This document shows, one piece after another, positions 13,018-36,511 of a DNA stretch of 64,000 bases (position 1 is its first letter; every line of letters begins with the position of its first letter). The position numbers and the translations under genes are program-made. The notes under the pieces are model-generated. The model was not told the origin of the DNA, searched no databases, and saw nothing but the letters and a program-made list of their open reading frames with translations. The DNA comes from Herbiconiux ginsengi (GTDB taxonomy: Bacteria > Actinomycetota > Actinomycetes > Actinomycetales > Microbacteriaceae). Location of the stretch: the NCBI RefSeq assembly GCF_900107435.1, contig NZ_FNPZ01000007.1, forward strand, positions 1 to 64,000. The letters are read 5' to 3'.

Positions 13018-14247
13018 TCAGCGCGCGAGGGAGAGGCGGGAGTACCCCGGAATGAGGGTGCCGCGCTGAGCGCTCCGTCCGACGATCCGGAGCGGGGCCT
13101 CGGCGGCGGCGTCGAGCACGGCTCCCAGGGTGGTGCCGATCTGCGCCATCGCCAACGGCGCACCGAGGCAGAAATGCACGCCGGCCCCGAACCAGAGTTG
13201 CTTGAGCGACGCGGCCGGGTTGCCGACGGGGTCGAAGCGGCCTGCGGCCCGATCGGCGAGGAAGGTGGCGAGAATGAGTCGATCACCCGGATGCACGGCC
13301 ACGCCGCCCACGGATGCCCCCGCCCGCACACTCCGCAGCATCACCGGTGACGGGGTGGTGACCCGCAGCCCTTCGGCGACAGCGGCGTCGACGAGAGTGC
13401 GGTCGCAGGCGAGGGCGCCGAGCCATCCCGTGTCGACGAGGATCGCGATCATCCGGGGGAGGTACGACACCAGCGTCTCGGTGCCGGTGAGCACGAAGGC
13501 GCCCACCGCGCCCATCGCCTCGTCTTCGGAGAGCCCGAGTTCGCGCATCCGACCCGGCACGGTCGTGGCCTGCGGCGAGTCAGGAGCGCCGGGGCCACCG
13601 CTGCCGGGCGTTTCCCGGTAGGCACGCCGGGCATGCTGCGTCAGCTCCTCGAGCACCTCACGCGCGGCCTCCACCTGCCGCGGTGTGAAGCGTGGGCGGG
13701 ACAACCGCACGTATCCGGTCACGGCGGAGACCCGCGCGAACAACTCCTCGCCGATCACCCCGCGTTCGAGTCCCACGAGCCGGCTGATCACTTGCCCGGC
13801 GTATTCGCGCACCTCTGCCACGAGGTCGACGGTCTCCCCCGCCACGAGTCGGGCCGTGAGCGCTGCTGCCGCGTCGCCGATGGTCGCTCTCGTCAGCTCA
13901 CCGACGTACGCCGGTGCGAACAACGGGCCGAGCCGACGGCGGAGCGCGAGGTGGTCGAGGCCCTCCATGTTGAGGAGTACCGACGGGCCGAGCACGGGCG
14001 TCCACAGCTCGGCCGGGGAGCCGGGCCCGGTCTTGGTGAAGCTCACGGTGTCGAGGAGAACGGAGCGGAGGAGTTCCGCATCCGTCACGACCACCCCCAA
14101 CCCGGGCACGCGCACGGCGGGTCGCCGGATGCGCGACAGCAGCGGGTAGACGACCGGGTGCGCGGTGCGCTGCACCCGCTCCTCCCACGCCCGCTCGGCG
14201 CCAGGCCGCACTGCCGGCGCCTCGGGTGCCCCGACGTCGGGCGTCAC
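13018..14247 (-). CDS. Cytochrome P450
   Basis: A 409-residue class I bacterial P450. The haem-binding loop FGAGVHFCLG carries the thiolate Cys near residue 360. The ExxR pair of the K helix (EGLR, about 300), the I-helix oxygen-activation motif (LTGTET, about 250) and a later PGDRLILAT strand are all present, so the enzyme should be active. Bacterial P450s of this type need a separate ferredoxin and reductase, and neither is in the window. It is the last of four coupled genes; its ATG overlaps the TGA of the ketosynthase III gene. It probably hydroxylates or oxidises the lipid-like product of that operon. Confidence 0.93.
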   Translation of the reverse strand: MTPDVGAPEAPAVRPGAERAWEERVQRTAHPVVYPLLSRIRRPAVRVPGLGVVVTDAELLRSVLLDTVSFTKTGPGSPAELWTPVLGPSVLLNMEGLDHLALRRRLGPLFAPAYVGELTRATIGDAAAALTARLVAGETVDLVAEVREYAGQVISRLVGLERGVIGEELFARVSAVTGYVRLSRPRFTPRQVEAAREVLEELTQHARRAYRETPGSGGPGAPDSPQATTVPGRMRELGLSEDEAMGAVGAFVLTGTETLVSYLPRMIAILVDTGWLGALACDRTLVDAAVAEGLRVTTPSPVMLRSVRAGASVGGVAVHPGDRLILATFLADRAAGRFDPVGNPAASLKQLWFGAGVHFCLGAPLAMAQIGTTLGAVLDAAAEAPLRIVGRSAQRGTLIPGYSRLSLAR

Positions 14248-15269
14248 AGCCGCACCACCATCGCACCGAGCGAGATCCCGCCCGCGAGGCCCACGAGCGC
14301 CACCAGGCTGCCGTCGCCCACCAGGCCGCGCTCCCGCGCGAGTTGCAGCTGCAACGGGAGCGTGACCGAGGCGAGGTTGCCGTGCTCGGAGATGGTCACG
14401 ACGGTTCGCGCCGGATCGATGCCGAGCACCTCCACGATCGTGTCGTGATACGACCGCGCCACCTGATGCACGGCCACGAAGTCGAGATCGCCCACCCGAT
14501 GCCCCAGCTCCGCGATCGTCTGTTCGACGAGCCCGACGCCGACCTCGGCGAAAGCGCGTTGCAGGGCCGCCCCGTCCATGTCGAAGTAACTGCCGCCCTC
14601 GGCGTGCGGGTTCACCGAGCCGCCGGCGGGCAGCGTACCCACCGCCCAGTGCTCGGAATGGGCCACGAACCTGCTGCCCAGGATGCCGGGACCCGCTTCC
14701 TGCTCTCCGCCGACCTGCTCGAGCAGGACGGCGGCTCCCCCGTCACTCATCGTGTAGCCGGCGAAGGAGCGCAGGAACTGCCGCTGGTCGTCGAGCCGCC
14801 AGCGCACCGCGTGCGAGGGTTCCTCGCCGCTCGCGATGAGCACGCGACGGTACTGCCCCGACGTGATGAGCGCATCCGCCACCTGCATCGCATTGAGCAC
14901 GCTGTTGCAGGCGTTCTTGATGTCCATCACCGGGCAGCCGAGGCCGAGCTTGGCCGAGACGATATGGCTGGTGGCGGGCTCGATGAGGTCTTGGCTCGCC
15001 GACGCGAAGAGCAGGAGGTCGACGGGACCGGGCGATTCCTCCAGGGCACCGCGCGCCGCGGCGACGGCGAGGTCGGAGGTCTGCCAGCCGTCGGGGCGGA
15101 GGTGCACGCGCTCGACGCCGGTCAGACGGCCCACGAGTCCGGTGGGGAGCGCGAGGCCGGGGTTGAGCCGGCGCAACTGCTCCTCGGTCTCGGCCGTGCT
15201 GCGGGTGGTGGGCGGCAGGTAGGTGGCGACCGCGGCGATGCGCGAGCGGATGCGGTCGGTGGCGCTCAC
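14244..15269 (-). CDS. 3-oxoacyl-ACP synthase III (KAS III)-like ketosynthase
   Basis: A 341-residue thiolase-fold condensing enzyme. The Cys-His-Asn triad is intact: Cys121 in KNACNS, His268 in AVHQVA and Asn298 in EHGNLAS. The C-terminal Gly loop (GLAGGISLG) is also present. It is not obviously the housekeeping FabH: it sits alone from fatty-acid synthesis genes and is coupled by four-base overlaps to an SDR upstream and a P450 downstream. Relatives with this layout condense acyl chains in secondary lipid pathways such as OleA-type head-to-head condensation or acyl transfer. Which acyl donors it uses is unknown. Confidence 0.9.
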   Translation of the reverse strand: MSATDRIRSRIAAVATYLPPTTRSTAETEEQLRRLNPGLALPTGLVGRLTGVERVHLRPDGWQTSDLAVAAARGALEESPGPVDLLLFASASQDLIEPATSHIVSAKLGLGCPVMDIKNACNSVLNAMQVADALITSGQYRRVLIASGEEPSHAVRWRLDDQRQFLRSFAGYTMSDGGAAVLLEQVGGEQEAGPGILGSRFVAHSEHWAVGTLPAGGSVNPHAEGGSYFDMDGAALQRAFAEVGVGLVEQTIAELGHRVGDLDFVAVHQVARSYHDTIVEVLGIDPARTVVTISEHGNLASVTLPLQLQLARERGLVGDGSLVALVGLAGGISLGAMVVRL

Positions 15270-16303
15270 GAGATCATCCGCGGATCCGTGGTCGGCACGA
15301 GCGACTCCGCGACACGGTCGAGCCCCTCGCTCACCGACACGACTGGAGGGCCGAAGAGCTCGCGACAGCGTCGGGCGTCGAAGGTCTTCGAAGTGGCATA
15401 CACGATCACCGAGTATCTCGTTATCGGCGGCTCACCGCTCCTCCGCGACATCCGCCACGCTCCCTCCACCACGGTCGCGAGCCAGATCGCGACGCCGCGC
15501 GACACCGTCCGACGGGGGCGCGGAACCCCGACTCGATCCAGCAGCGCGAACACGGTCTCCTGCAGCGGCACGGGTTCGCCGTTCGTGACGACGACGGTCT
15601 GCCCGAGCACGGCGGGCGAGGTCGCGGCGACCACGAGTTGCTCGACAAGGGTGTCGATGTAGACGAGATCGGACATCGCCGGGCCGGCGCGGCCCGCCCG
15701 GAATCGCGGCAACGAGCCGCGCCGCGCTGCCGCGAGCAGCCGGGGCAGCAACGTGGTGTCGCCCGGCCCGAACACGGCCCGCGGCCGTAGCACGACCCAT
15801 TCCGCGGCGTAGTCGCGCACCACGAGTTCGGCCGCGTATTTCGAAGCCGCGTACTCGTTGACGAATCGCGGCCCGGCGATGGCGTCGTCGGGCACGTCGA
15901 GTTGGTCGCCCGCCGTGTAGAGAACGGAGGCGGTCGACACGAACACGAACCGAGGTCGGGCAGCCTGCCGGGTCGCGAACTCCACCACGGCGCGGGTGGC
16001 GTGCACGTTCTCGCGCTCGAACTCGGCTCGGGTCCCCCACGGCGAGCTGCGCGCCGCGGCGTGCACGACGACATCGGGCCGGAACCCGAGACCGTCGAGC
16101 CGCTCCGCCGCGTCGGGGGCGCTGAGGTCGAGCACCCGGTAGTCCGCGCGATCGACCGCCCGCCGCCCGAGTCCGAGCACCTCGAACCGGGCGTCGGCGG
16201 CCAGGCGCCGCACCAGTGCGCCGCCCACGAATCCCGAGGCGCCCGTGACGAGCACCCGCAGCGGCCTGAACGCCCCGGTCTCCGGGCCGATGCCGGGGGT
16301 CAC
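15266..16303 (-). CDS. NAD-dependent epimerase/dehydratase-family (extended SDR) protein
   Basis: A 345-residue extended SDR of the 3-beta-HSD/epimerase type. The Rossmann motif is TGASGFVGG (about 20), the catalytic Ser is in VFVSTAS and the YxxxK pair in YAASKYAAE (about 150), followed by LRPRAVFGPGD typical of OleD/3-beta-HSD-like enzymes. It starts with a GTG overlapping the TGA of the adenylating enzyme gene and ends overlapping the ketosynthase ATG. In such a setting it would reduce a beta-keto product of the ketosynthase. The much longer open frame extending upstream is antisense-like noise inside the ligase gene. Confidence 0.9.
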   Translation of the reverse strand: MTPGIGPETGAFRPLRVLVTGASGFVGGALVRRLAADARFEVLGLGRRAVDRADYRVLDLSAPDAAERLDGLGFRPDVVVHAAARSSPWGTRAEFERENVHATRAVVEFATRQAARPRFVFVSTASVLYTAGDQLDVPDDAIAGPRFVNEYAASKYAAELVVRDYAAEWVVLRPRAVFGPGDTTLLPRLLAAARRGSLPRFRAGRAGPAMSDLVYIDTLVEQLVVAATSPAVLGQTVVVTNGEPVPLQETVFALLDRVGVPRPRRTVSRGVAIWLATVVEGAWRMSRRSGEPPITRYSVIVYATSKTFDARRCRELFGPPVVSVSEGLDRVAESLVPTTDPRMIS

Positions 16304-17649
16304 GAGACGTCTTCCCGCACGATGCGGCGCACCTTCGCGGCCGGATCCGGCGTCGCCCAGGGCTCCTCGACGACCGACGCCATACACCCGTAGGTCGAGA
16401 GCAGATCCCGGAGCACGGAGGCGACCCGCGCCGGCGCATCCGGAGCGGCATCCGCCAGCGAGACGCGGACATCGAGACCGGTCTGCCGGATGCGCCAATC
16501 CGCGTAGCCGTCTGAATTCAGCGCCATCGCCCGCCGCACCGCGTCGGGGAACACCTCCACCACGGTCAGCCCATCGGTCCCCGGCAACCGCAGCACCGCG
16601 TCGGCTCGGCCGTCGATCGCAGCAAGCACAGCGGTCACCCTCCCGCAGGCGCACCGCTCGGGCGCCGCCGGATCGACGCGCAGCACGTCGTCGAGTCGAT
16701 ACCGGGCGATGATCTGGGTGCGCCGATCGAAGTCGGTCACCACCGGCGCGAAATGCGTGTGCTCGGCATCCAGCCACTCGCGCTCGACGAAGACCGACTC
16801 CTCGTTCAGATGCAGCGCCCCGTCTGCACAACTGACGCCGAGGAGTCCCTCGGTCGCCTGGTAGACCTGCCGAGTCGACACGCCCCATGCCGCCTTCACC
16901 CGGCCGGCCGTCTCCGGTTCGAGAACTTCCGCGACCGAGACCACGAGCCCCGGCCGGATGCCGAGCGACCCGTCCAGTGCCCTCCGGGCGAGGGCATCGA
17001 GAACGGAAGCCGGAGCCACCAGCACGTCGGGCCCCACACCCCGAGCGACGGCGCCGTCGAGCGCCGCGACGTGACCGTCGAACGGTTGGGTGAGGTCGTG
17101 GAAGGCGAACCGGATGCGCGAACTCGCCACCGACTCGTAGAGGTTGCCGCCCGCACGCAAGAAGAAGGCGATCCGCAGTGGCGACTCCCACGGACGCAGC
17201 AGCTGCCCGAGCGCCCGGTGGTCGAGCACTCGGGCGAGGATCGTGCCGGCCCAGAGCATCCGCTCGCGCGGACTCACGAGGAACGCTCCCCGCCGGCCCG
17301 AGGTTCCGCTCGAGAGACCGACCGTGAGATCGCCGTCGACCAGGGGCGCGAAGTCGCGGCTGCGTTCGGCTTCCAGCGCGACGTCGAGCGCGTCGACCAG
17401 GCGCACGCCTCGGGTGTTCAACTCGTCGAACCGCTCGAGCAGGGTCGACTTGTCGACGATCGGCAGCTGATCGAGCCGCATCCGGGAACCGTCTGACCGG
17501 TAGAACGGCGCCGCGGGAATCCGCCTCAGGAACGAGCGGATGCGCCGGCGCTGCCACGCCTCGAACCGCGCCCGGGTGCGGAACCGGAACCCCCACCGCG
17601 CACGAACGAATCGGCCGAGCATCACGGCGACGAGCGCGCGGTCCGTCAT
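16300..17649 (-). CDS. F390 synthetase-related / phenylacetate-CoA ligase-like adenylating enzyme
   Basis: A 449-residue ANL-superfamily protein. The phosphate-binding loop is GLSSGTSGRRGAF (about residues 105-117), preceded by the PIVDKSTLLERF block seen in phenylacetate-CoA ligase relatives. The second ATP motif appears as YQATEGLLG, and the hinge region as YRLDD. A CAC-G region near 345 is typical of the F390 synthetase-related subgroup. It lacks a carrier domain. The ATG at 17649 was chosen; a GTG at 17661 is possible. It heads a four-gene coupled operon and probably activates a carboxylic acid (or beta-hydroxy acid) as an adenylate. Substrate unknown; no family member of this subgroup has a function I can cite. 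Confidence 0.85.
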   Translation of the reverse strand: MTDRALVAVMLGRFVRARWGFRFRTRARFEAWQRRRIRSFLRRIPAAPFYRSDGSRMRLDQLPIVDKSTLLERFDELNTRGVRLVDALDVALEAERSRDFAPLVDGDLTVGLSSGTSGRRGAFLVSPRERMLWAGTILARVLDHRALGQLLRPWESPLRIAFFLRAGGNLYESVASSRIRFAFHDLTQPFDGHVAALDGAVARGVGPDVLVAPASVLDALARRALDGSLGIRPGLVVSVAEVLEPETAGRVKAAWGVSTRQVYQATEGLLGVSCADGALHLNEESVFVEREWLDAEHTHFAPVVTDFDRRTQIIARYRLDDVLRVDPAAPERCACGRVTAVLAAIDGRADAVLRLPGTDGLTVVEVFPDAVRRAMALNSDGYADWRIRQTGLDVRVSLADAAPDAPARVASVLRDLLSTYGCMASVVEEPWATPDPAAKVRRIVREDVS

Positions 17650-17743: not shown

Positions 17744-18484
17744 ATGGCGGGCATCATCGGACACATCCTGCCGCTCGCCCTCGGCGTGGCCCTCAGTTCC
17801 GTTCCCATCGTGGTGATGGTGCTCATCCTGCTGTCGCCGCGCGGCCGCTGGTCGAGCCTCACCTATCTGATCGGGGCCGTCATCGGCCTCGCCGGCCTCA
17901 CCACGCTCTTCACCGCCGTGGCCACACTCCTCCCGCCCGCGCCTTCCTCCAGCAAGAGCCCGCTCATCGCCACCATCGAAGTCGCCCTGGGGGCGGGTCT
18001 GCTGTTCATCGCCGCTGTGCGCTGGCGGCGCGCCCGACGTCTCCATCACGAGCAGACCGAGGGGCATGCGGCCGCCGCCGCCGGCGCACCCGGCGGCGGC
18101 ACCGGCACCGCCGCGAAGTCGCAGACGGGAGCCGCCAAGTGGATGGCCAAAGTCACCACTCTCGGTCCGATCCCCTCACTCGGCGTCGGCTTCGTACTCA
18201 TGCTACGCCCGAAGAACCTCCTGCTCACGATCGCCGCCGGAGTCGCCATCGGTGCCGGCGGAGCGACCTTCAGCGAGGTGGTGGTCGGCATCGCCCTGTT
18301 CGTGGTGCTCGGCATCTCGACCCTCGCGGCCCCGATCATCTTCGCCGTCGTCGATCCCTCACGGATGCGCCGCCCCCTCGAAGAGACGCGCATCTGGATC
18401 GAGGGCAACAGCGCCACGGTCACCACCATCGTCGTTCTGGTGCTCGGTACCGTGATCATCGGCAGCGGCCTGGCCCACTACTGA
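17744..18484 (+). CDS. GAP-family (SfLAP-like) membrane protein
   Basis: A 246-residue protein with six predicted membrane helices in a 3+3 arrangement, split by an Ala/Gly-rich cytoplasmic loop (about 100-130). This is the layout of the GAP/sulfolipid-1-addressing protein family of LysE-like exporters, implicated in mycobacteria in moving glycolipids or peptidolipids to the surface. The LSPRGR and GPIPSLGVGFVLMLRPKNLLL segments fit the family. It is divergent from the adenylating enzyme/ketosynthase/P450 operon with a 94-base gap, so it could export that pathway's product; this link is inference. Confidence 0.75.
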   Translation: MAGIIGHILPLALGVALSSVPIVVMVLILLSPRGRWSSLTYLIGAVIGLAGLTTLFTAVATLLPPAPSSSKSPLIATIEVALGAGLLFIAAVRWRRARRLHHEQTEGHAAAAAGAPGGGTGTAAKSQTGAAKWMAKVTTLGPIPSLGVGFVLMLRPKNLLLTIAAGVAIGAGGATFSEVVVGIALFVVLGISTLAAPIIFAVVDPSRMRRPLEETRIWIEGNSATVTTIVVLVLGTVIIGSGLAHY

Positions 18485-18518: not shown

Positions 18519-20078
18519 TCACCCGAAGTCGCGGATGAAGCGCTCGAACTCGCTCCGCCCGGTCGTGCCCGATGCCGTCACGTCGGAGATCCGCAGGATC
18601 GTCAGGCCCGAATACGCGGTCGCACCCGAGAAGGCGTCGCGGATGTGCGACCAACCAGGCCCCGACGCCGATCCGGTGCTGCCGAGATTGCCGGCCAGGG
18701 CGTTCTCGCCCTTGAGCACGATGTGTGCCTTGGTGGCGGCCGCGCCGACCCAGGAGACGAGAGAAGCGGCATCGGAGTAGGCGTGCGCCGAACCGTCCCA
18801 CTCCCGCCCGTCGGGCATCTCGAGGGCGGTGAAATGCAGGAGCACATGGTGCGTGGGCGTACGGGTGCCGTCGCCGTTCACGTCGAGGTCGTGCACGAGG
18901 TTCGCGATGCCGTCGTAGCCGTGCGAGGTCGACGCGGCGTTGTAGGCCTGGTCGGTGTGGATGAGCCCGGCGGCGACCTCGGGCGCCCGCTGCATCGGGC
19001 TCGTCGACATGGTCTGCCAGTGCACCCCGGGAACCTTGAGACCGAGCGGCACCGAGGCGAGACCACCGTCGAAGGCGTCGATGGCCTGCGTCATCACCTC
19101 CCGGCCGTGGCGCAGCAGGCTCTCGTTGTACCAGCGGGTGAAGTCGCGCCCGTAGGTGATCGAGTGGTAGGCGCCGGAATCGATGAACCGCTCATGGTCG
19201 GTGGGTGGCGAGATCATCGAGTAGGTCAGACCCGGGATACCCCAGGCCGCCGCGACACCGGCGACGGAGCCGTAGCGGGCGACAGCCCAGTCGGCGAACG
19301 CCGTGACGGCGGCCGGGGTGTAGCTCTGGAAGGTGCCCCGGTTCGGGTAGCCCGCCGGGTTGCCGGCGACCTTCGAGTCGTGCGCGGCATAGGACGGGTA
19401 GCGCAGCTCGCCAGCCGGCCCCGTGCCGATCGTGACCTCCTGGATGCGGTCGGCGAAATCGGTTCCCGGGGTCGTGACGTGCGTTTCGAACGCGTTCATG
19501 AAGTCGCGCATGTCCTGGAGCGTGCGACGGTTCGCGGAACCCCAGGGCGACGGGGCTTCGTGGTTGTCGTTCCCGTACTCGCTGCGGTAGAAGTTGTCAG
19601 CCGGGATGCTGGAGCACGCGCCGGTGAAGCCGCAGACCTCGAGGGGCTCCCAGACGAACGAGGGAACGGAGATGTCGCAGACATCCCCCACGTTGCTCTT
19701 GCACTCGTGGAACGACATTACCGGCACCAGGTCGAGCCCAGCCCCCACGACCGCACCGAACAGCTTGTCGTAGTAGGCCCAGTCGAAGGTTCCCCGCGAG
19801 GCCTCGACGGCACCCCACCACACGTCGACCGCCACGGCGTCGACGCCCTGCGCGTCGGCCACCGCCAACGACGCGGTGAAGGCCCGCCACTGGGGCCCGG
19901 AGGTCTGCCAGTCGTCGATCCAGAGCGGCGCCATCACGTTGACGGTCGATGCTGTTCCCGAACTCGCCGAGGCGGCGGGAGTAGCGAGCGGCGCGACCGC
20001 GAGGGCCAGCGACGAGAAGGTGGAGAGAACGGCGGCCGCGACTGCGACCCGGGTGCGGGGATGGGTACGAGATGCCAT
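18519..20078 (-). CDS. Secreted beta-amylase (glycoside hydrolase family 14)
   Basis: A 519-residue exported enzyme that releases maltose from non-reducing ends of starch-like glucans. A signal peptide spans about residues 1-38, ending in an Ala-rich cleavage region. GH14 hallmarks follow: DVWWGAVE (about 86), the HECKSNVGD block with the substrate-binding HxCxxNxGD motif (about 123), GTGPAGELRYPSY with the catalytic acid Glu (about 218), and LKGENAL with the base Glu (about 465). Length suits a single catalytic domain without a starch-binding module. The ATG is preceded by GGGGGG. GH14 enzymes are uncommon in bacteria, but the motif set is unambiguous. Confidence 0.92.
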   Translation of the reverse strand: MASRTHPRTRVAVAAAVLSTFSSLALAVAPLATPAASASSGTASTVNVMAPLWIDDWQTSGPQWRAFTASLAVADAQGVDAVAVDVWWGAVEASRGTFDWAYYDKLFGAVVGAGLDLVPVMSFHECKSNVGDVCDISVPSFVWEPLEVCGFTGACSSIPADNFYRSEYGNDNHEAPSPWGSANRRTLQDMRDFMNAFETHVTTPGTDFADRIQEVTIGTGPAGELRYPSYAAHDSKVAGNPAGYPNRGTFQSYTPAAVTAFADWAVARYGSVAGVAAAWGIPGLTYSMISPPTDHERFIDSGAYHSITYGRDFTRWYNESLLRHGREVMTQAIDAFDGGLASVPLGLKVPGVHWQTMSTSPMQRAPEVAAGLIHTDQAYNAASTSHGYDGIANLVHDLDVNGDGTRTPTHHVLLHFTALEMPDGREWDGSAHAYSDAASLVSWVGAAATKAHIVLKGENALAGNLGSTGSASGPGWSHIRDAFSGATAYSGLTILRISDVTASGTTGRSEFERFIRDFG

Positions 20079-20150
20079 CCCCCCACGCTAGGTTCGCGCG
20101 ACCGCCGTCCGACGTGAGTAGTTTCTCCCTAATTCACGACCGCCCCGCGG

Positions 20151-21800
20151 CTAACCGCGACGTGCGCCCGTGCGCACCGTGCGCATCCGCAGCACGGCGA
20201 GCACGGTGCCCGCGCCGAGCAGCAGGACGCCCACCGGAAGGGCGCTCAGGGCGCCGTCCGCGCCCGTCGCCGCCAACTGCGAACCGGTTGCGGCCGGTTC
20301 GGCCACCGGCTCCGGCACGGGTGCCGGATCGACCGGCACGACGACCGGCGGGTACTGGTTGATCGCCGTGGTGTCGTTCGCGAGCGACGCCGTCACCGAG
20401 GCGATGGCGCCCGCCATGATGCCGAGCGCATCCGCGTTCACGTTGGCGATGCCGTCGGCCGCCGAGTGGTAGTTCGGGTCGGGCGTGATGCCCGGCCCTC
20501 CCGTGCCGCCGAAGAGCGCGGCCTGGTCGACCGTCTTCTCGTCGTCGGCGCCGGTGAACAGACCGGAGGCCGCCACATCGTTGGCGATGAACGCGTCGTA
20601 GTCGCTCCGGGCGTCGAACGCCGTGTCGATCCACGGCTGCCCGATCGCGTCGAAGTAGTCGGTGAACGCCTTCTCGGTGGCGATCGAGCCCTCGGGCACC
20701 TCGACCGGCGCTTCGTAGGTCGACTGATCGGCGTCGTACACGCTGATCACGTAGTTCGGCGAGGCCACCATGTCGAAGTTGAGGTAGGTGGCGATCTCGT
20801 CGAGCTCATCCGGATCGTTCGCCGCCAGGTCGTCGACGTAGTACGTCGAACCGACGAGGCCGACTTCCTCCGCGCCCCACCAGGCGAAGCGCACCTGGTT
20901 GTTGAGGTCTCCGGATGCGGCCAGCTGCACCGCGGTCTCCAGGATGGCGGCCGACCCCGACCCGTTGTCGTTGATGCCGGGCCCTTCGGGAACCGAGTCG
21001 AGGTGCGCCCCGAGCATCACCGTGTTGTCGTCGCGCCCTGTGGGCGTCTCGGCGATGATGTTGAAGGTGTCGACGGTGGTCGTGGTCTCCTGCAGCGTGA
21101 GGCTGACCGTGGGGTTGCCGGGCAGCGCGGCCACCAAGGCCGCGCCCTCCTCCTGGGTGAGCCCGACCGACGGGATGTACTCCGGCACCTGCTCGCCGAG
21201 GGTGCCGTTGAGCGGCCCGGGCTCGTTGTTGTAGATCAGCACCGCGGCGGCACCGGCTCCGGCGGCGGCGAGCGACTTCTCGGCGAACGAGCAGGCCCCG
21301 CGGCTGACCACGGCGACCTTGGCCGTGGCGACCACACCGCCCCACTCCTCGGTGGTGCATCCGGTGGCGGTGGCGGGAACGACCATCTCCGCGTCCACGA
21401 TCCCGCCCACCGCGGTCTCGGTGGTTCCCTCCATGGGGATGCGGTCGCCCTCCGGCCCCGTGGTCGTGCCCAGCAGGGTGATCGAGAAGTCGTCGATCGT
21501 CTGTGTCGTGGCCTGGAACGGCTGACGCACGGGCGTGTATCCCGCCGCGGTGAGCACGCTCTCGATGTACTGCCCGCTGGCCTCGTAACCCGGCGTGCCG
21601 ATGGCGCGGTTGCCGCCGTTCGCGTCGGCGATGTCTTGCAGGGCCTGCAGGTGCGTGGTGATGCCCGCGACCGTGACCCGTGACTCCAGATCGTCGGGAT
21701 CGACGGCGAAGGCCGCGCTCGACCCGAAACCGGCGACTCCCGCGACCACCACCCCCGTTCCGATGCCGAATCCTGCGAGTCTCCGATGAAGCATCTTCAC
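20151..21800 (-). CDS. Cell-wall-anchored M28-family metallopeptidase with PA domain
   Basis: A 549-residue exported zinc aminopeptidase. Layout: signal peptide (1-32), N-terminal peptidase part, protease-associated (PA) insert (about 130-240), then the M28 catalytic core with GAHLDSVPEGPGINDNGSG (His/Asp zinc ligands), WWGAEEVGL (catalytic Glu and Glu ligand) and a late HSAADG. The C-terminus carries QLAATGADG, a membrane segment and an Arg-rich tail, a class E sortase signal like that of the small protein at 3214. The start is a GTG at 21800 with GGGGAG six bases upstream. It probably trims peptides at the cell surface. No sortase gene is nearby. Confidence 0.93.
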   Translation of the reverse strand: MKMLHRRLAGFGIGTGVVVAGVAGFGSSAAFAVDPDDLESRVTVAGITTHLQALQDIADANGGNRAIGTPGYEASGQYIESVLTAAGYTPVRQPFQATTQTIDDFSITLLGTTTGPEGDRIPMEGTTETAVGGIVDAEMVVPATATGCTTEEWGGVVATAKVAVVSRGACSFAEKSLAAAGAGAAAVLIYNNEPGPLNGTLGEQVPEYIPSVGLTQEEGAALVAALPGNPTVSLTLQETTTTVDTFNIIAETPTGRDDNTVMLGAHLDSVPEGPGINDNGSGSAAILETAVQLAASGDLNNQVRFAWWGAEEVGLVGSTYYVDDLAANDPDELDEIATYLNFDMVASPNYVISVYDADQSTYEAPVEVPEGSIATEKAFTDYFDAIGQPWIDTAFDARSDYDAFIANDVAASGLFTGADDEKTVDQAALFGGTGGPGITPDPNYHSAADGIANVNADALGIMAGAIASVTASLANDTTAINQYPPVVVPVDPAPVPEPVAEPAATGSQLAATGADGALSALPVGVLLLGAGTVLAVLRMRTVRTGARRG

Positions 21801-33987: not shown

Positions 33988-34835
33988 TGCTGTTCCTTCG
34001 TCTCGGTTCCATAGAAGACGCGGTCGTGTTCTGCCGCGTCCCACGCTCCGGCGCCGCCCGAGGGCCGCACCGTGTTCACCACGGTGGCGCCGCCGTCGGC
34101 CGACACGATCTGACCGGTGACGTAGGCGGCGTCGTCGCTGAGCAAGAACGCGGCGACGGCCGCGATCTCGTCTGCGGTGCCCGCACGCCGCAGCGGCGTC
34201 GTCGACGCCCGCGACTCCATGTCGTTCTTGCCGCCGGTGGTGGTCGCGGCGGCAGCGAAGAGCTCCGTCGGCACGATGCCCGGAGCGACCGCGTTGACCC
34301 GGATACCGAGCGGCCCGCCGTACACGGCCGCACCGTGCACCAAGCCGTTCACACCGTGCTTCGACGTCTGATACGCGAGCAGATCGGCGCTGCCGGTGAG
34401 CCCCGCGATCGACGCGGTCACCACCACCGCGCCCGTCGACTGCTGCACGGCGTAGCGGCGGAACGCCGCCCGGAGTCCGAGGAACTGCCCGCGCACGTTC
34501 ACCGCCATGACGCGGTCGAACTCCTCCACCGTGAGGTCGGGGATGGGCGTGAAGGTGCCGAACACGCCGGCGTTCAGATGATGCAGGTCGATGCGCCCGA
34601 ACCGGTCGACGGCCGCCGCGACATAGGCGTCGACATCCGTCTCGCTCGAGACATCCGCCCGCACACCGATCGACTCGGTCGGCAGCCCACGGGCCACGGC
34701 AGCCGCCGCGTCGCCGTCGATGTCGACCACCACGACGTTCGCCCCCTCGCCCGCCAGCCGGGTGGCGGATGCCCGCCCCAACCCGTTGGCCGCGCCGGTC
34801 ACCACGGCCACCCGGCCGTCGAACCGCCCGCTCAC
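33984..34835 (-). CDS. Short-chain dehydrogenase/reductase
   Basis: A 283-residue classical SDR: TGAANGLGRA (cofactor Gly motif), DIDG (Asp after beta 2 suggests NAD), NAG (about 88), catalytic Ser in VTASIAG and YQTSK (Tyr-x3-Lys, about 155). A C-terminal extension of about 30 residues follows the usual end. It overlaps the upstream hydrolase and downstream dehydrogenase genes. Substrate unknown. Confidence 0.9.
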   Translation of the reverse strand: MSGRFDGRVAVVTGAANGLGRASATRLAGEGANVVVVDIDGDAAAAVARGLPTESIGVRADVSSETDVDAYVAAAVDRFGRIDLHHLNAGVFGTFTPIPDLTVEEFDRVMAVNVRGQFLGLRAAFRRYAVQQSTGAVVVTASIAGLTGSADLLAYQTSKHGVNGLVHGAAVYGGPLGIRVNAVAPGIVPTELFAAAATTTGGKNDMESRASTTPLRRAGTADEIAAVAAFLLSDDAAYVTGQIVSADGGATVVNTVRPSGGAGAWDAAEHDRVFYGTETKEQQ

Positions 34836-35662
34836 CGGTTCACCATCGCCGGCTCGCCGATGGTCACGACCAGTTCGGAGTCGCTGCGCCCGATCGCGCG
34901 GAACCGGTCGAGCGTCGCCGGGTCGTGCCCGGCCACCAGGTGCTCGACCTCACCGGTCTCGAGCATCCCCCGGATGCGATCGAATCCGGCGTACATCGCG
35001 ACCAATTCGGCCACCGAGCTGAACGGCATGTCCTTCTCGAACTCCTCGTAGTAGTGGATGGCGTCGCTTGCGAGCAGCACCACTCCGGCTGCCGTCGGCA
35101 CCCGCACGACGCTCTGCCCCGGGGTGTGCCCACCGATCTCGATCATCTCGATGCCGGGCGCGATCTCGATCCGCTCGTCGAACGCGGTCACCCGCCCGGC
35201 GTCGACCGCCGCGAAGAGTTCGGCCAACTCGACGTCTTCGACCGAGTGGTGGAACTGCACGCGCTGCGCGTGCCGGCTCGACCAGAACTCGAGCTCCCTG
35301 CGCGCGATGACCACGGGCGACTCGCGGAAATGCGCGAGATTGCCGATGTGGTCGTAGTGCGCGTGGGTGATGAGCACGAGCGGCGCGTTCTCGGGATGCA
35401 CACCGAGGGAGGCGAAGAGCTCCGGCGGGTCCATCAGCAGCGTGCGGCCCCGGCTCTCGCCGCCGGCAACGGAGTATCCGGTGTCGACCACGATCTCCAC
35501 GCCCTCGCCGCGCACCAGCCAGACGAAGTAGTCCATCCGGATGTCGTCGTCGGGCTCGTGGTAGAGCGCGTGGTTGAGGTACACCTCGCTGCGGCGCCCC
35601 ACGCGGGTGCCGTAGCGGGCGATCGACACCTCGTACTGCGGCATCGTCTCGTCGGGGGCCAT
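34832..35662 (-). CDS. Metallo-beta-lactamase-fold hydrolase (lactonase-like), second of tandem pair
   Basis: A 276-residue MBL-fold hydrolase. The HxHxDH motif is THAHYDHIG (about 100), followed by GGHTPGQS (His, about 180), SDAIHYYEEFE (Asp) and AGHDPA (final His). This set is typical of the AHL-lactonase/AttM-like subgroup that opens lactone rings. It overlaps the SDR by four bases and starts two bases after the stop of the related gene upstream. It could open a sugar or hydroxyacid lactone feeding the dehydrogenases; quorum-quenching activity is possible but unproven. Confidence 0.9.
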   Translation of the reverse strand: MAPDETMPQYEVSIARYGTRVGRRSEVYLNHALYHEPDDDIRMDYFVWLVRGEGVEIVVDTGYSVAGGESRGRTLLMDPPELFASLGVHPENAPLVLITHAHYDHIGNLAHFRESPVVIARRELEFWSSRHAQRVQFHHSVEDVELAELFAAVDAGRVTAFDERIEIAPGIEMIEIGGHTPGQSVVRVPTAAGVVLLASDAIHYYEEFEKDMPFSSVAELVAMYAGFDRIRGMLETGEVEHLVAGHDPATLDRFRAIGRSDSELVVTIGEPAMVNR

Positions 35663-35664
35663 CG

Positions 35665-36474
35665 TCAGGCCAGCACGGTCGCGACGGCCGCCGCGGCATC
35701 GGGCGCCGCAGGGAACTTGGCGCGCACCCGGGCGTCATGGCCCGGGATGATCGTGGCACCGGTCTCGCGCGCCAGACGGTTGATGAAGCTGAGCCCATTC
35801 TTCATCTCGTCGAGGTCGGTGAAGGCGAAGAACGGCCACTCGTGCTCGATCTGCTCGTAGAAGTGGGCGGCGTCGACGGTGAGGATGAGGGAACCGTCGG
35901 CGGTCTGCACGCGGGTGAGGAGTTCGCCCGGGCAGTGCCCGCCGATCGGGTACACGGTGACGCCCGGGAAGACCTCGGTCTCCTCGCTCACGAGCGTCAG
36001 CCGGCCCTCCGCGTCCGCCTGTTCGATCACCGCGAGATCCTCGGCGGTGGTGAACTCGCCCTCCAGGGCGTCGGCGACCTTCTTGGCGAACCAATAGTCG
36101 TATTCGGCCTGCCCCGACACCACCCGGGCGTTCGTGAAGAGCCCGAGGTAGCCGATGTGGTCGTAGTGGAAGTGGCTGGTGATCACCAGATCGACGTCGG
36201 CCGGGTCGATGCCCACCAGGGCCAGGCCCTCCGGGGTCGGCGTGACGCTGATCTCGCCCAGCCAGTCGCGCTTCGGGATGTCGTAGCCGGTGTCGACCAG
36301 GATGATCGATTCGCCCTGGCGCAGTATCCAGAAGTTGTAATCCATGTCGAGGTCGCCGTCGGGCACCCCGTACTGCTCGAAATCGTGGAAGACGTCGCTC
36401 ATCCGGACGACCCGTTCGCCGTATTTCACTTGCCAGATGGACAGTGTCGGCGAGATCTCGGGCGGTGTGGACAT
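35665..36474 (-). CDS. Metallo-beta-lactamase-fold hydrolase (lactonase-like), first of tandem pair
   Basis: A 269-residue paralogue of the following gene: SHFHYDHIG, GGHCPGEL, VDAAHFYEQIE and PGHDAR. Both share the long N-terminal strand region with MDYNFWILRQGE / MDYFVWLVRGEG. The start at 36474 is set by GAAGGAG eight bases upstream; the in-frame Met at 36501 lies inside that leader. It is the first gene of the seven-gene catabolic operon and is transcribed from the GntR-type divergent promoter. Confidence 0.9.
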   Translation of the reverse strand: MSTPPEISPTLSIWQVKYGERVVRMSDVFHDFEQYGVPDGDLDMDYNFWILRQGESIILVDTGYDIPKRDWLGEISVTPTPEGLALVGIDPADVDLVITSHFHYDHIGYLGLFTNARVVSGQAEYDYWFAKKVADALEGEFTTAEDLAVIEQADAEGRLTLVSEETEVFPGVTVYPIGGHCPGELLTRVQTADGSLILTVDAAHFYEQIEHEWPFFAFTDLDEMKNGLSFINRLARETGATIIPGHDARVRAKFPAAPDAAAAVATVLA

Positions 36475-36511
36475 GGTCGAAACTCCTTCGTTTTGCACCA
36501 TTCGGTAGTTG

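Follow-up and report, generated by a model that had tools for sequence, protein, structure and literature searches.

A chimeric operon of Herbiconiux ginsengi and its probable Ole-type lipid pathway, in which a PaaK-type ligase would replace OleC

A 64,000-nucleotide stretch of DNA from Herbiconiux ginsengi, a bacterium associated with soil and plants (contig NZ_FNPZ01000007.1, positions 1 to 64,000; the window), carries a four-gene operon for an adenylating enzyme (the ligase), an extended short-chain dehydrogenase/reductase (SDR), a β-ketoacyl synthase III (KAS III) and a cytochrome P450. Judged by sequence comparison, the KAS III and P450 belong with the type I clusters, the actinobacterial OleA-glycosyltransferase-P450-OleC-OleD cluster type, and the ligase and SDR group with a second cassette found across phyla; the operon is therefore considered a chimera, and it probably encodes an Ole-type lipid pathway in which a PaaK-type ligase is substituted for OleC. 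An earlier note on this DNA had described the gene set and likened it to ole olefin clusters; its observation is confirmed and its interpretation is partly supported, and the two-source origin, the second cassette and a divergent SfLAP gene are additions to it.

Operon Architecture

The ligase-SDR-KAS III-P450 set lies on the minus strand as described, with all four open reading frames (ORFs) intact (Table 1). Neighboring genes overlap by four bases at each of the three junctions; the first had been read correctly as GTGA, and the second and third, previously given as ATGA, also read GTGA, each with a GTG start. The P450 belongs to PF00067 and retains its heme cysteine in a motif read by eye as FGAGVHFCLG. 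Ratios of nonsynonymous to synonymous substitution (dN/dS) are 0.12-0.28 across the four genes in three pairs (window, L025, L044), and all four are under purifying selection.

An OleA-Type Condensing Enzyme

The best family for the KAS III is PRK09258, at 160.5 bits, which does not reach the cut-off of 285. The catalytic triad proposed earlier (C121, H268, N298) was borne out by alignment; a Cys-His-Asn triad is present in 109 of the 109 KAS rows aligned. The Glu97-Pro98 pair of the operon enzyme aligns by phmmer with the LEP of Xanthomonas OleA (3row); the aligned Glu is position 103 of the 3row chain, which would correspond to residue 117 provided that this chain of 344 residues runs to 358, as the matched range suggests. 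PMC7064751 reports the Glu117-Pro pair throughout its OleA set except in two proteins, and states that condensation by the Xanthomonas enzyme requires this Glu. The pair occurs in every operon-group row (17/17, from 16 loci), in all type I (20/20) and OleBC-linked (6/6) rows, and in none of the 66 rows of the second cassette.

In a tree of 74 KAS rows, the operon-group enzymes form a single clade (support 97/89), with the same-family loci L156 and L157 beside it (100/97); this group falls on the OleA side with type I and OleBC-linked OleA (98/93), and the KAS III of the second cassette is separate (100/92). Forcing the operon KAS III together with the second cassette is rejected in the approximately unbiased (AU) test (p-AU 0.0017); a single type I clade that excludes the operon group is not rejected (p 0.076). 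Phylogeny against FabH and OleA had been proposed as a way of refuting the earlier interpretation, and the operon enzyme does not group with the two FabH-like proteins of its own genome. These two proteins form the outgroup, outside the branch of the operon KAS III and OleA, and are 27-29% identical to the operon enzyme. A spare housekeeping FabH would share the fold and the triad, and FabH entries do rank above OleA in both sequence search and Foldseek (VIA places OleA first, 42.2 vs 41.0); despite these rankings the Glu-Pro motif and the tree lead to its rejection. It is thus the motif and the tree that place the enzyme with OleA, and not its general sequence likeness; by these two the operon KAS III is not a housekeeping FabH. 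Elsewhere in the genome, one of the FabH-like KAS III genes (G000:C2:412698-413525) lies beside a gene that looks amidohydrolase-like by eye, apart from the fabD-fabH-fabF-like locus.

The Type I Clusters as the First Source

This KAS III type is found in 33 of 394 genomes of the class at 1e-50; 31 of the 33 were new to the set of loci compared, and 20 of those 31 make up the type I sample. An OleC-like gene is present in 18 of these, a glycosyltransferase-like gene in 14, a P450 in 12 and an OleB-like gene in 4; the OleB-like and glycosyltransferase-like genes never share a locus (0 of the 4 OleB loci are among the 14). In a quick tree the operon P450 falls among the P450s of nine of the twelve P450-bearing loci (L156, L157, L160-L166); the P450s of the remaining three (L171, L174, L175) are placed away from it. 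The gene content of type I matches the OleA-glycosyltransferase-OleC-P450-OleD cluster of Actinoplanes atraurantiacus, for which a glycosylated, hydroxylated β-lactone is predicted in PMC7064751. The four OleB-bearing loci (L167, L168, L172, L173), which lack a glycosyltransferase, have separate OleB and OleC genes and come from Streptomyces-size genomes.

A Cross-Phylum Cassette as the Second Source

The ligase scores 352.6 bits against TIGR02304 (cut-off 251.9), upholding its earlier assignment to the F390 synthetase-related type, and has the PaaK-branch fold of the ANL superfamily (acyl-CoA synthetases, NRPS adenylation domains and luciferases) seen in PaaK-type adenylate-forming enzymes. 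F390 synthetase adenylates coenzyme F420; TIGR02304 is labelled only 'F390 synthetase-related', not F390 synthetase. Pfam gives no match to the ligase at 0.01, so cluster finders keyed to the usual AMP-binding domain may miss this enzyme. A Herbiconiux pangenome study gives antiSMASH classes in its main text, from which 'betalactone' and 'beta-lactone' are absent (PMC10011130, main text). Searches of the open-access PMC literature returned no paper naming TIGR02304, and such literature as pairs F390 synthetase with ketoacyl terms, in the portions available, concerns ladderane clusters and not the operon set.

The second cassette was surveyed in the best 80 of at least 549 ligase relatives. Eleven of these are of the operon kind (L044-L053, L055; L046 is cut, and L051 and L052 are without KAS III), and 69 are others (L054, L056-L123), whose hosts include Pseudomonas, Brevibacillus, Paenibacillus, cyanobacteria, Acidobacteria, Verrucomicrobia and Nocardioidaceae. 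Within the 80, KAS III, SDR, metallo-β-lactamase (MBL) fold hydrolase and ligase occur together in 61 of the 69 other loci, and 44 additionally carry ATP-grasp and GNAT-like proteins; neither a P450 nor OleC was found in the 69. The ATP-grasp protein is PRK06849 in the one tested, and the GNAT-like label is a visual assignment; the one such protein tested matched neither Pfam nor NCBIfam families. Three cassette KAS III proteins were tested and are best matched by PRK07204, one of them above the cut-off; three cassette SDRs are best matched by two OleD models, below the cut-off. No described pathway for this cassette was found in open-access PMC literature searches. In the Psychromicrobium locus L055 (11257-13542), a single ORF encodes both the ATP-grasp and the GNAT-like protein; the ligase gene lies on one side of it and the gene of the OleA-type KAS III on the other.

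The operon-group ligases form one clade among the ligases of the second cassette (SH-aLRT 96, quick tree). The best family of the operon SDR is OleD, at 160.9 bits against a cut-off of 580; it branches with ten second-cassette SDRs of the Acidobacteria/Nocardioides form (100/100, SDR tree), in which the ligase-SDR gene order is the same as in the operon, and the AU test rejects a grouping with the SDRs of type I and OleBC-linked clusters (p-AU 0.009). For the KAS III, the resemblance to ole clusters drawn by the earlier note reflects kinship, by Glu-Pro motif and by tree; the SDR is of a clade other than actinobacterial OleD. The SDR of Psychromicrobium (L055) is of the first-source kind; holding it with the other operon-group SDRs is rejected (p-AU 7e-5). 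The operon differs from the second cassette, which has a KAS III without the OleA Glu, an MBL hydrolase and, in the 69 loci, no P450 that was found; no MBL hydrolase match was found at the operon locus, and its KAS III is of another type.

Absence of OleC and OleB

No OleC-like gene lies at the operon locus. OleC occurs in 0 of 22 operon-group loci (two of them cut by contig ends), the operon-type ligase in 0 of the 20 type I loci, and the two together in 0 of 123 loci. OleC in trans was considered and rejected, since the canonical family gives no match in the genome itself at 1e-60 (8 of 26 first-look candidates scored; 67 of 149 genomes of the order do match) and type I OleC reaches at best 63 bits there with all 34 candidates scored. 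The corresponding best values are 82 bits in G315 and 56 in G026; type I OleC scores 1192 bits genome-wide in G240, which is of one genus with G315, and 540 in G049. The absence of an OleB hydrolase, claimed earlier, holds at the locus, and OleB in trans was likewise rejected, as a genome-wide search with the OleB domain peaks at 27.9 bits.

Proposed Pathway and Comparison with Known Systems

From the gene identities, the OleA signature, the tree positions and the lack of OleC or a good OleB match, we infer a set of reactions, their order, a product and its export. The OleA-type KAS III would join two acyl-CoAs head to head to give a 2-alkyl-3-keto acid, with Glu97 as the base, and the OleD-like SDR would reduce this to the 3-hydroxy acid; the P450 may hydroxylate a chain. 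The PaaK-type ligase is predicted to adenylate the carboxylate in OleC's place, a step that would end either in β-lactone closure or in acyl transfer to another acceptor. Without OleB, a lactone would not be converted to an olefin. The divergently encoded SfLAP protein is a candidate lipid exporter and may export the product. To go by the genes present, the product is most likely an Ole-type condensed, reduced and P450-oxidized lipid with a ligase-activated carboxylate; a β-lactone is plausible.

No pathway with this exact gene set was found in the open-access literature searched, in agreement with the earlier note; the Actinoplanes atraurantiacus cluster of PMC7064751, closely related but equipped with OleC and a glycosyltransferase, has however been published. 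Both have an OleA-type condensing enzyme, a P450, an OleD-like SDR and an adenylating enzyme, and both lack OleB; the operon differs in its PaaK-type TIGR02304 ligase, in having no such glycosyltransferase at the locus, and in an SDR of another clade. The oleACD β-lactone clusters of Streptomyces toxytricini and Nocardia brasiliensis, named in the same paper, likewise combine OleA, a reductase and an adenylating enzyme without OleB, whereas the operon has the PaaK-type enzyme for OleC plus a P450. The oleABCD olefin pathway (Xanthomonas; with an OleBC fusion in Micrococcales) shares the OleA Glu-Pro pair, the thiolase fold and an OleD-like reductase with the operon, which in contrast has neither OleB nor OleC at the locus and adds a P450.

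It is conceivable, and a possibility of some weight, that the ligase closes no β-lactone. The acid that it activates, either the hydroxy acid or an unrelated one, would then be passed on to CoA, an amine, an alcohol or a sugar, and the product would be a conjugated branched lipid. Against this, the Herbiconiux operon has no evident acceptor-transferring enzyme, and the ligase occupies the place that OleC holds in the sister clusters.

Distribution and the Canonical OleA Alternative

The ligase is found in 19 of 398 genomes of the family at 1e-10. Within the genus, all 16 genomes have it, and 13 of the 16 have the operon KAS III at 1e-30. Conservation of the gene set in other genomes had been a further test of the earlier interpretation; four other genera also keep ligase, OleA-type KAS III and P450 side by side, and neither this test nor that of the FabH grouping refutes the interpretation. 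These are represented by L035 (a second Microbacteriaceae genus, with flanks similar to those of the window), L036, L037 (a short contig with no SDR found and the P450 cut by the contig end) and L055 (Psychromicrobium, Micrococcaceae).

Three Herbiconiux genomes (G011, G375 and G1046) are without the operon KAS III genome-wide, and G375 is also without the operon SDR. All three carry a canonical oleA-oleBC-oleD cluster elsewhere, whose OleA is 57% and OleD about 68% identical to the L183 counterparts, with OleC-like sequence in between; in L192 an ORF of 974 aa separates oleA from oleD, a length that matches OleBC fusions. Canonical OleA was found at 1e-30 in 0 of the 13 genus genomes with the operon KAS III, and the two are thus mutually exclusive across the 16. 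The exchange is counted as one event because the three genomes form one clade in the ligase tree and their proportion of synonymous differences (pS) is lower for OleA (0.15-0.22) than for the ligase (0.27-0.33). This either-or fits an interchangeable OleA function, supplied in trans, and lends modest support to the pathway; the three genomes were rejected as a disproof of it, as canonical OleA, OleBC and OleD are present instead. Both ligase (dN/dS 0.26-0.28) and P450 (0.15-0.20) are constrained in these genomes, beside OleBC; an OleA acting in trans gives no reason for this.

The same retention fits an arrangement of two separately working halves, with ligase and SDR in the role that they have in the second cassette, KAS III and P450 in a different one, and the coupling being co-expression only: KAS III was lost from 3 of 16 genomes while ligase and P450 were retained under constraint. 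Independence of the two halves is nevertheless improbable, as ligase, OleA-type KAS III and P450 are kept together in five genera, one in the Micrococcaceae; the genomes lacking KAS III have canonical OleA instead; and the partner that the ligase retains there is the P450, a member of the other half. A spare FabH with incidental neighbors, set aside above, is scarcely credible.

Flanking Genes

The SfLAP protein scores 126.5 bits against PF11139 (cut-off 35), and its gene is found in 18 of 21 other operon-group loci (two genomes counted twice). Among the operon-group loci searched it was not found in L036, L037 and L055, and its adjacency could therefore reflect ordinary synteny. The zinc alcohol dehydrogenase gene was not found in L031, L036, L037, L055 or the loci without KAS III; it was rejected as a core part of the operon and is considered accessory. 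A nitrilase was similarly rejected, as its gene sits with an aminotransferase gene in the conserved flank. Promoter and terminator scans of the locus found none, against shuffle means of 0.2 and 1.2.

Two further features of the window were observed. A family 14 glycosyl hydrolase gene adjoins an M28 peptidase gene (18519-21800), and both recur in genus loci. Two neighboring MBL-fold proteins (34832-36501) are about 36% identical to each other, are best matched by N-acyl homoserine lactone (AHL) lactonase families below the cut-off, and are weakly similar to the hydrolase of the second cassette.

Table 1. Positions of the operon genes and associated features (window coordinates unless a locus is named)
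Feature	Position	Strand	Basis
Adenylating enzyme (ligase) of TIGR02304, 'F390 synthetase-related', with PaaK-type ANL fold; gene 1 of operon	16300-17649	minus	
Extended SDR, OleD-like reductase	15266-16303	minus	best family NF042422 (OleD), below cut-off; tree; AU test
OleA-type KAS III (Cys121/His268/Asn298, Glu97-Pro98)	14244-15269	minus	
Glu97 codon of KAS III, aligned to OleA Glu117	14979-14981	minus	phmmer alignment to 3row
Cytochrome P450, heme motif intact; final coupled gene	13018-14247	minus	PF00067; quick tree
SfLAP (sulfolipid-1-addressing protein) family membrane protein, divergent, 94 bp upstream of operon	17744-18484	plus	PF11139
Zinc alcohol dehydrogenase, same direction, 32 bp downstream of P450	11948-12985	minus	PF00107/PF08240
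Canonical oleA-oleBC-oleD-like clusters of Herbiconiux without operon KAS III	L192 4916-9554; L193 5121-9840; L194 5104-9790		

Significance

A broader proposal can be offered tentatively, and is rather doubtful as a whole: TIGR02304 may be a second class of hydroxy-acid-activating (β-lactone-forming) enzyme that replaces OleC, the cross-phylum cassette may be an unrecognized Ole-like pathway, and the operon may be a natural swap experiment that links both. If true, a PaaK-type enzyme would do the work of a β-lactone synthetase, widening the chemistry of that family, and the cassette of Pseudomonas, Brevibacillus, cyanobacteria and Acidobacteria would gain a hypothesis of function. The genus Herbiconiux, with either the operon KAS III or canonical OleA and never both in its 16 genomes, would provide a natural test.

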